The notes under the pieces were generated by a model. That model had not been told where the DNA came from. It saw nothing but the letters and a program-made list of their open reading frames with translations, and did no database searches. Shown in pieces: positions 13,199 through 17,526 of a DNA stretch of 60,941 bases. Both the position numbers and the translations under genes were made by a program. Where the stretch lies: positions 1 to 60,941 of the forward strand of contig WFWZ01000412.1 in assembly GCA_015490875.1 (NCBI GenBank), given 5' to 3'. Every line of letters starts with the position of its first letter. The stretch's first letter is position 1. This stretch comes from Planctomycetaceae bacterium. GTDB lineage: Bacteria; Planctomycetota; Planctomycetia; Pirellulales; Pirellulaceae.

Positions 13199-15175
13199 CT
13201 ATTTCACGATCTCGCATTGTGGCAACGCCTCCTGGAGGGCGAGTACCGCACGTTCTGGCAGCGACGTATCTACGATGCAGAGAGTCTTGAGTTGGCGCAT
13301 CGTTCTCAGATGCGAGACACTTGCCTCGGTTATGTTCGTTCCCCACAAGGATAGACGCTGGAGCACTGGGAGACGCTGCAGGTAAGCCATGCTGCCGTCA
13401 GACACTCCAGTGTTCTTCAAGTCCAAAGCCGTAAGAGAACGTGCAGCCACTAGTTCCGCCACTGCCTTGTCACCGACGCGTGTACACCCGCTCAGATCGA
13501 GTGACTTCAGACGAGGGGACGCGGCAACGAATCGCAACACGCGCTCGTCCACCTGCACGTTGCCACTTAACGTGAGCTCCTCCATCGTGCGGCAGTCCCG
13601 CACCGGCCGGAATCCCGCAGGAGGTACCTTGGGTACTGCGAGTGTGAGCTTGCGCAGTGCGCGCATGTGTGGCAACCACGACAGATCCGTAAGGCCGGGC
13701 GCATCGACTTCTAGCTCTTCGACGGGGCACCGGATTGCGATTTCGTTGAGTCCGCGAGCCGAGATAGAACGGGACTTGAGTTTCAGTTGAGTCAGACGGT
13801 CGAGCCTCGCAATGTGGAGGAGCCCATGGTCCGTGATCTCACCTCCGGAAGTCGTTTCGAGCGCCGTTAACTGCCGGACGTGTGGGAAGAATCGGACATA
13901 TTCGAGAAGGCGATCGTTGGCAACGTCGGACCCCGACCCTGGTATGGTCAATCGCGACACCCGCCCTCCGTTCGTCGTGATGTCGACGCCAGCAAGAGTC
14001 AGAAACTCGCGTGGCGTTCTGGGTGGCCGCAATTTAAGTTCATCTAGAGCTACCATGTCCAGCTTGCCTGAGCCACTACTGACGAGAACCCAGCGTGCAT
14101 TGGAGCTCGCTGCGAATTGATCCCAGTGTTCAGAGTCCTGGGGCATACGATCGACCCAGAGTCGTCGCCCGGTGGCCCAATCCCACGCCACCAGGTCGAA
14201 TGACCGATGGTCGCTATAGTTGTATTGTCGAAACGCGATGAGGTTCCGACCGTCCCTCGAAAACACGAGTGACGCGTTGACTCCAGCCACATCGATAGGG
14301 CCGACTCGCGCGGCGTCGAGCCATGACAGTCGCTTCAGGACTTTCAAAGTCGGCGCATCCAGGAGCAGGACATCGTCGGAAAAGGCTACAGCTACCAGAC
14401 CAAGCGAGCCGGCAACGGCAACGGCGCGTGGCATCGTTGATCCCATTGCCGGTCCGATGGCCATACCGTTCCCCGCGGCCCCGGACTGCCCGGGGGCTGC
14501 TCTGATGACTCGCCACGTTCCGTCGCCATGCCTGGCAACCACATAGAGTGTCTCCCACCCGGGCACTTGTGCGAATACGACCTCTCTGTCGATTCGAGCG
14601 TCGAAACGACAGCCCCGCGGCATTTCTAGGACGCTCACCACAGAGGAAGGGTTGCTCCACGGTCTATACTCGACGGAACGACGCCTGATGAGGACGATAT
14701 ATTTTTCGGTCGCCGCCACATCGAGTATGTCTTCTTGCTCGGTTGTCCATCGCCGCGAACGCTTTCCGATATCCCAAACATGAACTCGGGCGAGACGACG
14801 TTCCGCTGGCACAGTAAGGTCGTAATGGAGTACTACGAGGTGTTTTCCATCAGGAGAAAACGCGATGTCCTTGACTCGAAACTGCGATGGCAGTTTGATC
14901 ACATCACCAACCGCACGCAGGTCACCAACAACGGTGACGCCCGATTTGAACCCCGCAGCGGCGAATCGGCCGTCCGCCGAGAGGGCAATGGCTGTCGGCG
15001 CCCACGGTTCGGCTTGAGTTATCGTTTGAAGTTGTTGGTCAGCAACGTCGTCGGCGATCGCCATCGAGGAAGCTACAGCCGCGACAGAGAGCACCACGAG
15101 AGATTGCACGAACGCTACGTGCGGAACGCGACTCGGTCGAAGATGGAAACCAAAATGCCGGGGTTTATCACACAC
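13199..15175 (-). CDS. Secreted protein with N-terminal WD40-like and C-terminal LRR repeats
   Basis: 658 residues; GTG start at 15175 with AGGAG seven bases upstream. A signal peptide (VVLSVAAVASSMAIADD) is followed by WD40-like blades (APTAIALSADGRFAAAGF, VKDIAFSPDGKHLVVLHY, VHVWDIGKRS) to about residue 390. Residues 420-650 are ribonuclease-inhibitor-type LRRs (LKSLDLSGCTRVGDKAVAEL, LTALDLKNTGVSDGSMAYL, LQRLSLWGTNITEASVSHL). The combination is frequent in planctomycetes; no catalytic motif is visible, and a binding or scaffolding role outside the cytoplasm is inferred. It lies 232 bp upstream of gspD on the same strand, with a promoter between them, so it is probably a separate unit. Confidence 0.85.
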   Translation of the reverse strand: MCDKPRHFGFHLRPSRVPHVAFVQSLVVLSVAAVASSMAIADDVADQQLQTITQAEPWAPTAIALSADGRFAAAGFKSGVTVVGDLRAVGDVIKLPSQFRVKDIAFSPDGKHLVVLHYDLTVPAERRLARVHVWDIGKRSRRWTTEQEDILDVAATEKYIVLIRRRSVEYRPWSNPSSVVSVLEMPRGCRFDARIDREVVFAQVPGWETLYVVARHGDGTWRVIRAAPGQSGAAGNGMAIGPAMGSTMPRAVAVAGSLGLVAVAFSDDVLLLDAPTLKVLKRLSWLDAARVGPIDVAGVNASLVFSRDGRNLIAFRQYNYSDHRSFDLVAWDWATGRRLWVDRMPQDSEHWDQFAASSNARWVLVSSGSGKLDMVALDELKLRPPRTPREFLTLAGVDITTNGGRVSRLTIPGSGSDVANDRLLEYVRFFPHVRQLTALETTSGGEITDHGLLHIARLDRLTQLKLKSRSISARGLNEIAIRCPVEELEVDAPGLTDLSWLPHMRALRKLTLAVPKVPPAGFRPVRDCRTMEELTLSGNVQVDERVLRFVAASPRLKSLDLSGCTRVGDKAVAELVAARSLTALDLKNTGVSDGSMAYLQRLPVLQRLSLWGTNITEASVSHLRTMRQLKTLCIVDTSLPERAVLALQEALPQCEIVK

Positions 15176-15297: not shown

Positions 15298-15326
15298 TTG
15301 ACGGCTTCGGCGGCACGGCGTATTCT
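15298..15326 (+). promoter_or_regulatory. Sigma70-type promoter of an orphan RNA
   Basis: TTGACG (15298-15303) and TATTCT (15321-15326) are separated by 17 bp, close to the sigma70 optimum. Predicted initiation is near 15333-15334. No plus-strand protein gene follows before the terminator at 15596-15661, so this promoter would drive a stand-alone transcript of about 330 nt. Confidence 0.6.
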
Positions 15327-15333
15327 GCTCGCC

Positions 15334-15661
15334 ACACTCGGGTCACGAAGCAGAACGCTTTGGGACGCGAGTGGACACGGCCCGCCGGCCGAGCCCGCAT
15401 AAGGGAGAGTGCCGAGCGGCCTCCGATTCCCGGTGGAAACGCGTCCGGGAACCGGCGGCCGGGGCGAGTTCCCGCGGACCGCCGCCTGAGTGTTCGTGAC
15501 ACGGAGGTGACGACACCCTGCGGTCAACCGGAAGGCTTGTGGAACCAACCGATTCAGGGCGCTGCGTGGCAGGAAGCCTCCCAAGTCGTCCAATCGCTCC
15601 CGGAAAATGATCGGAGTCCTTTGCCCCCCTGGGACCCGTGGGCCTTCCGGGAGCTTTTTTT
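15334..15661 (+). ncRNA. Candidate orphan structured non-coding RNA, about 330 nt
   Basis: This plus-strand segment lies between two minus-strand genes and has a promoter at its 5' side and an intrinsic terminator at its 3' side. Hairpins seen in order: CACTCG 15335-15340 with CGAGTG 15368-15373, its interior adding GTC/GAC and AAGC/GCTT; TTCCCGG 15427-15433 with CCGGGAA 15445-15451; GGCGGC 15454-15459 with GCCGCC 15481-15486 enclosing CGGG/CCCG; GTGT/ACAC 15490-15502; GGTG/CACC 15506-15517; AGGCTT 15533-15538 with AAGCCT 15574-15579; and the terminator. The frame 15360-15695 has no recognisable protein character and runs through the terminator. I could not match it to RNase P RNA, tmRNA, 6S or SRP RNA by their conserved cores, so the family is unknown. 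Confidence 0.55.
15596..15661 (+). terminator. Rho-independent terminator of the orphan RNA
   Basis: GCTCCCGGAA (15596-15605) and TTCCGGGAGC (15645-15654) are perfect 10-bp complements and are followed at once by seven T (15655-15661). The 39-nt interior is GC-rich and may fold further. On the minus strand the same stem is not followed by a T-run, so it terminates plus-strand transcription only. Confidence 0.75.
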
Positions 15662-15691: not shown

Positions 15692-17176
15692 TTAGGCGTT
15701 GTCACCGGCGGCAAGTGAGATGTCCCCGATGCCGATCAGCCGCGTCTCTTTCCCCTCAAGGGCACACGTGCAGTTGGAACCATGGGCGCTGGTTGAGGCG
15801 ACGGCATCCTCGATGCGAGCCACCAGGTCGCTCGCATCTTCGCCTTCCTCCGCTTCAGCCACGGCGATTGTCAACGTGAACCGTTCGGGTGGAAAACGCT
15901 TCTGGGGCAGACGACACCGGTTGGCTCCTTCTCGAAGCCGTTCGGCGACGGTAACGGCACCGTCGAGTCGACAGCCAGGCAGCAACAGCGACAATGTCCC
16001 TTCGCTGAATTCAGCGACATGATCCATGTCGCGCATCGTCGCTTTGAACAGCAACGTGGCAGCACGGGTGACAGCCCGGCCAGCCGAGTCGCCGTGCTGT
16101 GCCACAATCGTGTCATAGCCATCGATCTTGGCCAGAAGAACGGCCAGCGACGTGCCGTTGCGATGACGCTCGGCCAGACGGCGGCTCACGTCCGCCATGA
16201 AGACCGCCTGCGTCGAAATGCCGGCACTGAAGTCCGTTTTTTCGAGATCGAGCTTTTCTTCCCAACCCTCCGGAGTGTGAATCGCACGTTTGGTCCACGC
16301 ATCCGCCACGGGACGCACGCGGCGGCCGTCATGCCAGTGCGAGCAATTCCGTCCGGCCTTTTTCGACTGGTAGAGGGCTTCGTCCGCACGGCTTACCATC
16401 TCGTCCGTGTCTTCTTCCCCCTTCAGTTCGGCCAGGCCGGTGCTGCACGTAATCCGAAACTGAGCTCCCTCGAAGGAAAACGTCTGCGCCGCGATCGACT
16501 CGCGGCACCGTTCCACGGCTCGAGCCACGTCCCGCGCCGTCCGTCCGGGAAAGACGACTGCGAACTCCTCTCCCCCGTATCGACAGACCAGGCCGTCGTT
16601 ACCAAGTTCCTGCCGGAGGACCTGGGCCACTCCCTTCAAAACGGCGTCCCCGGCAGGATGACCGAAACGGTCGTTGAAACGTTTGAAGTGGTCGACGTCC
16701 AGCATCAGGAGCGATAACGGCGTTTCCGACCGTTGGTGTTGCTCCCATCCCTCCTCCAGCGCCACGTCGAAAGCACGCCGATTGGCCAGCTTCGTGAGCG
16801 GATCGGTGTGCGCCTCTTCCGACCGAGAGGCGATTTCGCGGGCCTGATACTGCAGCCGAGTCTCGGCCGACTGGAGCTGACGTTGCATCTCCTCGTTGCA
16901 CTCGATCAGCTCGCCGACGACGCGGAGAAGGTGTTCGGGACCGGCTCGAGCCGCTTCCTGCAGCCGATTGTGGATCTCGGCGATCCTGGTGTGATGTTCC
17001 CCCAAGTCGTCCGCCACCCCTGAAGCGATCGATCTGAGGTGTTCCAAAGCCCGGTCGATGCGTGAGGAAGAGGGGGCGTCGCTCGGCGGGCCTTCCTGTG
17101 CCAGCCCACCGCGCAGCCACCACCCGCACAAGACGCCGCAGGCGACGAGCGAAGCCATTACGATAATGTCATGCAT
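15692..17176 (-). CDS. Membrane-anchored diguanylate cyclase with tandem GGDEF domains
   Basis: 494 residues from ATG 17176, placing a membrane helix (IIVMASLVACGVLCGWWLRG) at the N-terminus; the frame extends to 17275. A helical/coiled-coil region (about 40-145) precedes the first GGDEF domain with TDPLTKLANRRAFD, LDVDHFKRFNDRFGH and an active-site RYGGEEF. I see no RxxD inhibitory site at the usual distance. The second GGDEF (about 330-470) is degenerate, with HVAEFSEGTLSLLLPG in place of the signature, and is probably a regulatory or dimerisation module. It likely makes cyclic di-GMP at the inner membrane. It is monocistronic. Confidence 0.9.
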   Translation of the reverse strand: MHDIIVMASLVACGVLCGWWLRGGLAQEGPPSDAPSSSRIDRALEHLRSIASGVADDLGEHHTRIAEIHNRLQEAARAGPEHLLRVVGELIECNEEMQRQLQSAETRLQYQAREIASRSEEAHTDPLTKLANRRAFDVALEEGWEQHQRSETPLSLLMLDVDHFKRFNDRFGHPAGDAVLKGVAQVLRQELGNDGLVCRYGGEEFAVVFPGRTARDVARAVERCRESIAAQTFSFEGAQFRITCSTGLAELKGEEDTDEMVSRADEALYQSKKAGRNCSHWHDGRRVRPVADAWTKRAIHTPEGWEEKLDLEKTDFSAGISTQAVFMADVSRRLAERHRNGTSLAVLLAKIDGYDTIVAQHGDSAGRAVTRAATLLFKATMRDMDHVAEFSEGTLSLLLPGCRLDGAVTVAERLREGANRCRLPQKRFPPERFTLTIAVAEAEEGEDASDLVARIEDAVASTSAHGSNCTCALEGKETRLIGIGDISLAAGDNA

Positions 17177-17526
17177 CCCACGTCCGCCGTCGATGCTGGT
17201 AGTCCCGAGGAGCTTGGGGTCACCCAAGAGCGATCGGCCAACCCGGCGCTCGTCCACTGAGCCCAGACAATGCATACGTCAGGGAGGACTTACGAGCAAA
17301 GGTGGGGGCGGCCAGGTCGAGCCGCCACCCGGTGGTGGCCTACCCTCGCCCCTACAACCGTTCCAAGCCTCCCGGCTCCCAAGGACCCGCCCAATGCTTG
17401 CGGTTTGCACGCCCTCCCGTCACAATAGGCAGGTGGGACCGAGAGGATCGGGGATCCCTGCCCATGAGTGGATTGGGTTAGTTCAAAGGTGCCGGATATC
17501 TGGCGTCAAATTGGGGACGGCCGGCC
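17177..17526. other. Intergenic region with a near-palindrome
   Basis: This gap separates two divergent genes (GGDEF, minus; GYF protein, plus), so it must hold both promoters, but I see only weak candidates. A GC-rich near-palindrome lies at 17321-17339 (GCCGCCACC-C-GGTGGTGGC). It is followed by text of the kind TAGGGGCGAGGG on the minus strand, which resembles dispersed intergenic debris. I see no ORF or RNA gene. Confidence 0.4.

Follow-up and report, generated by a model that had tools for sequence, protein, structure and literature searches.

The RNA gene and its genomic setting

Stretch 15298-15661 of the window, by which we denote the whole 60,941 nt of planctomycete DNA analysed here, is a predicted stand-alone non-coding RNA gene with its own promoter and terminator (Table 1), and we infer that this gene is transcribed. 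As stated in the first-pass annotation, it is situated between two minus-strand genes, 13199-15175, whose product weakly matches WD40-like and LRR families, and 15692-17275, which is located downstream of and convergent to the RNA and is assigned to GGDEF by Pfam. The promoter and terminator elements claimed there are all present, namely TTGACG (15298-15303) and TATTCT (15321-15326) with a 17-nt spacer, the perfect 10-bp stem GCTCCCGGAA/TTCCGGGAGC (15596-15605/15645-15654), and the seven T behind it. Two promoter-like sites were found in 1 kb, one of them that of the window RNA, versus 0.1 expected in shuffles. A terminator scanner restricted to loops of 3-8 nt called no terminator in the stretch; it missed the one described here because the stem encloses 39 nt.

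Table 1. Predicted features of the RNA gene and its putative partner gene (positions in the window).
Feature	Position	Strand	Basis
sigma70-type promoter TTGACG-N17-TATTCT, then C-rich stretch	15298..15326	+	sequence and homolog comparison
predicted transcript, ~329 nt	15333..15661	+	start inferred from promoter
5' hairpin, predicted	15335..15373	+	fold -24.0 kcal/mol
possible H1 remnant, GCCCGCA 15393-15399 / CGCGGAC 15473-15479	15393..15479	+	homology read by eye
hairpin with hexaloop ACGGAG (15501-15506), predicted CsrA-type ANGGAN site; core 15494-15513	15490..15516	+	
possible second GGA hairpin GGC-AGGAA-GCC (GGCAGGAAGCC)	15568..15578	+	
3' domain: conserved UCCAAUCG, terminator hairpin 15596-15654, U7 tail 15655-15661	15588..15661	+	homologs, R1
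terminator loop with C6	loop 15621-15630, C6 15624-15629	+	
csrA, predicted partner, 72 aa	42804..43022	-	PF02599, E 2.8e-25

The same promoter architecture recurs in the homologs, with the consensus TTGACC-N17-TATTCT-CCCGCC. A loosely defined promoter precedes 163 of the 174 loci carrying the C loop, and 83 of 128 homologs have a strict one (TTGAC-N16-18-TANNNT followed by GCC within 9 nt) ahead of their C loop, versus 2 of 1790 control windows. The C-rich stretch past the -10 box is presumably akin to the discriminator found in promoters under stringent control.

The stretch, described in the first-pass annotation as having no credible ORF, is traversed by open frames as long as 117 aa. Since the transcripts of 30 homologs range from 148 to 428 nt in length, the open frames are taken as not conserved, and a protein-coding gene was rejected as an explanation. 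The minimum free energy (MFE) of the window RNA is -153.5 kcal/mol (z -1.45), and 7 of 100 shuffles fold equally well. Thus the folding energy is unexceptional, and the case for an RNA gene is made by conservation and covariation, not by stability.

At 108 homologous loci the neighbouring genes vary, the largest group comprising 16 of 188 proteins and being read by eye as the GGDEF family. Counted by locus, no gene adjoins the RNA more often than one of GGDEF type (diguanylate cyclase), which occurs at 16 of the 108 and may lie to either side. Groups with a SIS domain and of GlgC type (one member tested in each case) occur at 10 of the 108 loci apiece, the former always co-directional with and the latter always convergent to the RNA. 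The glgC-like genes are those of L070, L082, L083, L101, L109, L119, L123, L130, L141, and L182, and their arrangement may be chance synteny; glgC of E. coli is a classical CsrA target. Because the neighbours vary, the RNA most likely acts in trans, as predicted from this genomic context. For a cis-acting leader or attenuator of the adjoining gene one could cite the 10 co-directional SIS-domain genes, but the RNA has its own terminator, its neighbours are too varied, and the 10 GlgC neighbours as well as the window's downstream gene are convergent to it, so that we consider this explanation the least credible of those weighed here and rejected it.

Distribution in planctomycetes and comparison with known RNA families

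All genome counts given here include the window's own genome. Of the 60 genomes of the order, BLAST recovered the RNA from 48, for the most part via its 3' domain. A covariance model of this domain (R1), built from 30 loci with the window among its rows, matched 55 of the 60 genomes, once each, with the exception of G017, G018, G034 (72% complete), G041, and G046. The 3' domain of the window, being one of the building rows, scores 87.9 bits with R1. The label "orphan" in the first-pass annotation therefore does not apply, as relatives occur in most of the searched genomes of the order.

In a sample of 391 genomes of the phylum, each at least 85% complete, R1 matched 48, including all 20 members of the same order. 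Among the genomes listed, 27 of 35 in family f21 of the same class matched and none of six in two other families of the class. Elsewhere in the sample 1 of 330 genomes matched, marginally at 29.4 bits, with 323 non-matching genomes taken as outside the class from table order. A DNA pattern written for the form that the RNA takes in this order was located in at least 118 stretches of genome contigs, and among the 80 matches listed, 78 carry planctomycete titles and two are only named "bacterium". The RNA is also present in the genome of Blastopirellula marina DSM 3645 (L098). Contig C1 of G436 contains four R1 matches (the best at 3.9e-11, the others at 8.7e-6 to 7.6e-4), which may represent multiple copies of the RNA.

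At gathering score, Rfam yielded no match in the whole window. At E<=10 four matches to stretch 15298-15661 were obtained, all at chance level, and at E<=1 nothing was detected in 20 homologous loci. In particular, the CsrB/C and RsmY/Z models matched neither the stretch at E<=10 nor the 20 loci at E<=1, and those of 6C/B11 matched neither the window nor these loci. The search against all Rfam families thus left the window RNA without a significant family match, and the stated mismatch to RNase P, tmRNA, 6S, and SRP RNA is borne out by the lack of a covariance-model match at the locus. RNase P RNA, tmRNA, and SRP RNA were each identified above cut-off elsewhere in the same genome, on contigs C320, C416, and C122, respectively, and were rejected as identities of the window RNA. 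Likewise, a phage origin was discarded, the 3' domain having no match in the phage collection.

For 6S RNA, which is otherwise widespread, RF00013 detected nothing at E<=10 in the genome (a draft, 94.7% complete), and this apparent gap could be filled by a divergent 6S RNA acting as RNA polymerase decoy. However, the locus gives no RF00013 match either, the window RNA is predicted to fold into separate hairpins and a terminator instead of a long rod with a central bubble, and lengths of 148-428 nt among homologs do not suit this identity, which we thus rejected as very improbable.

Conservation and covariation in relatives were both found, as the first-pass annotation had proposed to check, and its suggestion of a new regulatory or structural RNA class is supported by these findings and the absence from Rfam. 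We take the window RNA to represent a new sRNA family that unites two functional parts of known kind; for this predicted combination, and for its occurrence in this phylum, no report was found. Searches of open-licence literature on planctomycete RNAs and CsrA, covering titles and abstract openings, returned no such RNA, nor any small RNA of planctomycetes whose role has been elucidated.

GGA hairpin loops and the 5' domain

Neither the CsrA-type hairpins nor the C6 loop had been remarked on in the first-pass annotation. The homolog set was derived from 174 C6-pattern loci. At 11 of them the loose rule detected no promoter; filtering on promoter score and length left 153, and 121 remained once near-duplicates had been removed. 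With no motif given, GGA was the most enriched of the 64 triplets in the MFE hairpin loops of the 5' part, with 158 GGA loops versus 28.4 in shuffles and 99 of 121 RNAs with such a loop versus 25.8; as the homologs are related, these and the following counts against shuffles overstate independence. An MFE-independent count over all 64 triplets agrees (GGA 200 versus 77.3). The enrichment is specific to the RNA strand, where 158 of 598 loops contain GGA, versus 17 of 614 on the reverse complement and 54 of 1600 in random windows of the same loci. Among 144 loops closed by three pairs, A occupies position -2 in 115, and G occupies position +4, two after the A of GGA, in 132. This context fits, at the level of sequence, ANGGAN and the CsrA consensus, given as the SELEX motif RUACARGGAUGU with an ANGGAN hexaloop in the accessible part of PMC7652899. 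The motif CANGGANG occurs 39 times in the first 30 loci versus 3.2 in shuffles, namely in 28 of the 30, and in 104 of the 121 RNAs of the wider set. The number of sites per RNA is low, 158 GGA loops in 121 RNAs (1.3 each), with two or more in 50 of the 121.

In many homologs the 5' domain contains three covarying helices, H1 (GGGUCYGCA/UGCGGACC), H2 (CGAAGCG/CGCUUCG), and H3, the last being the hairpin GGC-ANGGAN-GCC. Alignment A2 comprises 71 of 88 candidate central domains, all picked for CANGGANG, and omits by eye 17 candidates in which the H1 stem is not visible, an omission that leans towards structure. Across these 71 sequences both sides are changed in 19 of 21 pairs of the central helices and 86.0% of the cells pair, versus 30.8-39.6% with the partners slid, and none of 500 shuffles reaches any of the measures. 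The stricter alignment A3, i.e., 58 of the 71 rows of A2, gives 19 of 21 pairs and 88.3% paired. As CANGGANG was the selection criterion for the rows of both alignments, neither the loop letters of H3 nor its closing C-G pair were free to vary. R2, a model of the central domain built without the window's genus, matched 21 of 43 loci outside the model at E<=6.1e-5; eight of these 21 had been in the wider alignment before, and some others are close kin of model rows. The outer pairs of a small helix H0 at CCACGUGG form in only roughly half of the cases (26 of 61 and 34 of 64). Just 5' of H1, many homologs (L021, L023, L072, L074, and others) carry the palindrome AUCCACGUGGAU, which makes a poor hairpin and might enable the RNA to dimerize.

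In the window's genus the predicted 5' domain is diverged, with one ANGGA hairpin kept through compensating changes. In place of ACGGAG, the same-genus homolog carries the hexaloop AUGGAA, with three stem pairs compensated. The two RNAs are identical at 240 of 325 aligned positions, and their consensus fold comprises 84 pairs, 15 of which are changed on both sides and none broken, the latter partly because the fold was derived from these two sequences. One pair changed on both sides is located in the 5' hairpin (alifold). R2 gave no significant match to the window RNA (best 3.9 bits) and none to the same-genus homolog L002. The possible second GGA hairpin is identical in the homolog and hence without covariation, and stretch 15556-15588, folded alone, prefers other pairing. 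In the full MFE structure of the window RNA no GGA occurs in any hairpin loop, and strict enumeration counts zero GGA hairpins, the stem being interrupted by a G-G mismatch; for the GGA at 15503 the local probability of being unpaired is 0.35. The predicted CsrA site of the window RNA itself thus rests on one supported hairpin.

CsrA (PF02599) is encoded in all 60 genomes of the order, with 3-14 matches each and six in the window's genome (G000); this multiplicity per planctomycete genome is striking. The predicted CsrA of the window has L4 and R44, which we take to be RNA-contact residues. FliW is present in 53 of the 60 genomes, and in 49 of 60 together with the RNA.

The C6 domain, a possible mechanism, and its meaning

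The constant part of the RNA is the predicted C6 domain and not the CsrA module. Across the 30 aligned rows, UCCAAUCGCUCCCGGAA ... GUCCUUUGCCCCCCUGGGAC ... UUCCGGGAGCUUUUUUU is nearly invariant, where the rows were cut with a pattern fixing the C6 core and the invariance of those letters is by construction. The run of C in the loop was found at all 55 R1-located loci, which include the rows used to build R1, with six C in 53 and seven C in two. Three of the 15 consensus pairs of the long 3' hairpin show changes on both sides. Homologs of family f21 have a shorter outer stem but retain the loop and its flanks. Among ten f21 homologs, CANGGANG is missing in five and no GGA precedes the 3' domain in four. 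The CsrA module may therefore be a frequent accessory and not the core of this RNA, which is the main doubt on the best explanation.

That explanation, to which we assign a probability of roughly 0.6, is a free-standing sRNA predicted to bind CsrA via ANGGA loops in its 5' part and likely to pair with G-rich RNAs via the C6 terminator loop. One RNA would hold about one or two CsrA dimers off mRNAs, i.e., act as a low-valency decoy; alternatively, CsrA may be used to help the pairing of the RNA. The C6 loop would serve as the antisense seed that pairs with a G-rich RNA.

In a base-pairing sRNA proper, the C6 loop would do all the work and the GGA hairpins would serve stability or be occasional. 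The constancy of the C6 loop and its flanks and the five of ten f21 homologs lacking CANGGANG agree with this, as does the pairing of the C-rich terminator loops of B11 and RepG with G tracks (accessible parts of PMC12395582 and PMC8295292, respectively). Nevertheless, the enrichment of GGA loops is RNA-strand-specific and comes with the A and G that flank GGA in CsrA sites, compensated stems preserve the ANGGA hairpin, and the enrichment of G runs at gene starts is weak, so that we regard pairing without CsrA as unlikely. Before the starts of 522 predicted genes GGGGG was counted 14 times versus 6.0 (rank 40 of 507), and its enrichment is not clear; the top k-mers in these regions are the Shine-Dalgarno-like AAGGA and AGGAG. 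For loci L065-L182, AAGGA and CAAGGA rank among the most enriched words before starts, and Shine-Dalgarno and CsrA-like sites may overlap.

The strong conservation of the 3' domain and the single match in each of 55 of 60 genomes would also suit a structural or housekeeping RNA that works via a protein reading the C6 hairpin. The variable 5' part and the five of 60 genomes without a match suit a regulator better, and antisense precedents exist for C-rich loops, which renders a housekeeping role improbable.

Compared with known systems, the sRNA with predicted CsrA binding and C6 pairing resembles CsrB/CsrC and RsmX/Y/Z in being free-standing, in presenting GGA hairpin loops of the ANGGAN type, and in occurring in CsrA-encoding genomes. 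It differs from CsrB and RsmZ by the lack of an Rfam match, few sites per RNA (versus 22 GGA in CsrB, according to the accessible part of PMC7652899), the C6 terminator loop, the planctomycete host, and the additional presence of FliW in 53 of the 60 genomes. RNAs of the CsrB/RsmZ type bind and titrate CsrA, and a system of the BarA-UvrY/GacS-GacA type drives their transcription. A cytosine run in the loop of the terminator hairpin is shared with 6C/B11 of the Actinobacteria, from which the family is set apart by the missing Rfam match, a single C-rich loop, another phylum, and a long 5' domain that bears CsrA-type hairpins in the majority of homologs. As in RepG of Helicobacter pylori, the C-rich terminator loop is the likely pairing seed, but the family has an extra 5' domain and no known G-repeat target. 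C-rich loops have also been proposed to meet G-rich motifs near starts in case of sX13 of Xanthomonas, which has three such loops and for which the accessible text of PMC3771888 describes no CsrA module. By analogy, the family is predicted to work like both CsrB/RsmZ and RepG/B11 while being a detectable member of neither.

Among published planctomycete RNAs, the nearest lead is the Rhodopirellula-1 motif (Weinberg 2010), listed with the taxa "Proteobacteria, Planctomycetes", no Rfam accession, and a "y" in the column taken as cis-regulation (PMC2864571); it shares planctomycete occurrence with the window family and might be identical with it. A TraDIS study of Planctopirus limnophila states, in its accessible part, that ncRNAs were scored (PMC10632474), and the PVC group is credited with 8 annotated sRNAs in total in the portion available of PMC9029176.

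It is tempting to speculate that we deal with a class-wide bifunctional planctomycete sRNA, in which a CsrA-capturing 5' module and an antisense C6 loop act beside FliW, with CsrA maybe being both cargo and matchmaker; we consider this wider reading possible, if somewhat doubtful. The accessible text of PMC7652899 places CsrB-family sRNAs in the Gammaproteobacteria and states that it "remains to be determined" whether there is any species in which FliW and sRNAs act jointly on CsrA. With FliW and the RNA together in 49 of 60 genomes, this question becomes testable in cultured strains, e.g., Blastopirellula marina DSM 3645. If true, the bifunctional reading would mean a CsrA-controlling RNA outside the Gammaproteobacteria, and the RNA family would give a testable handle on gene control in the poorly understood planctomycetes.
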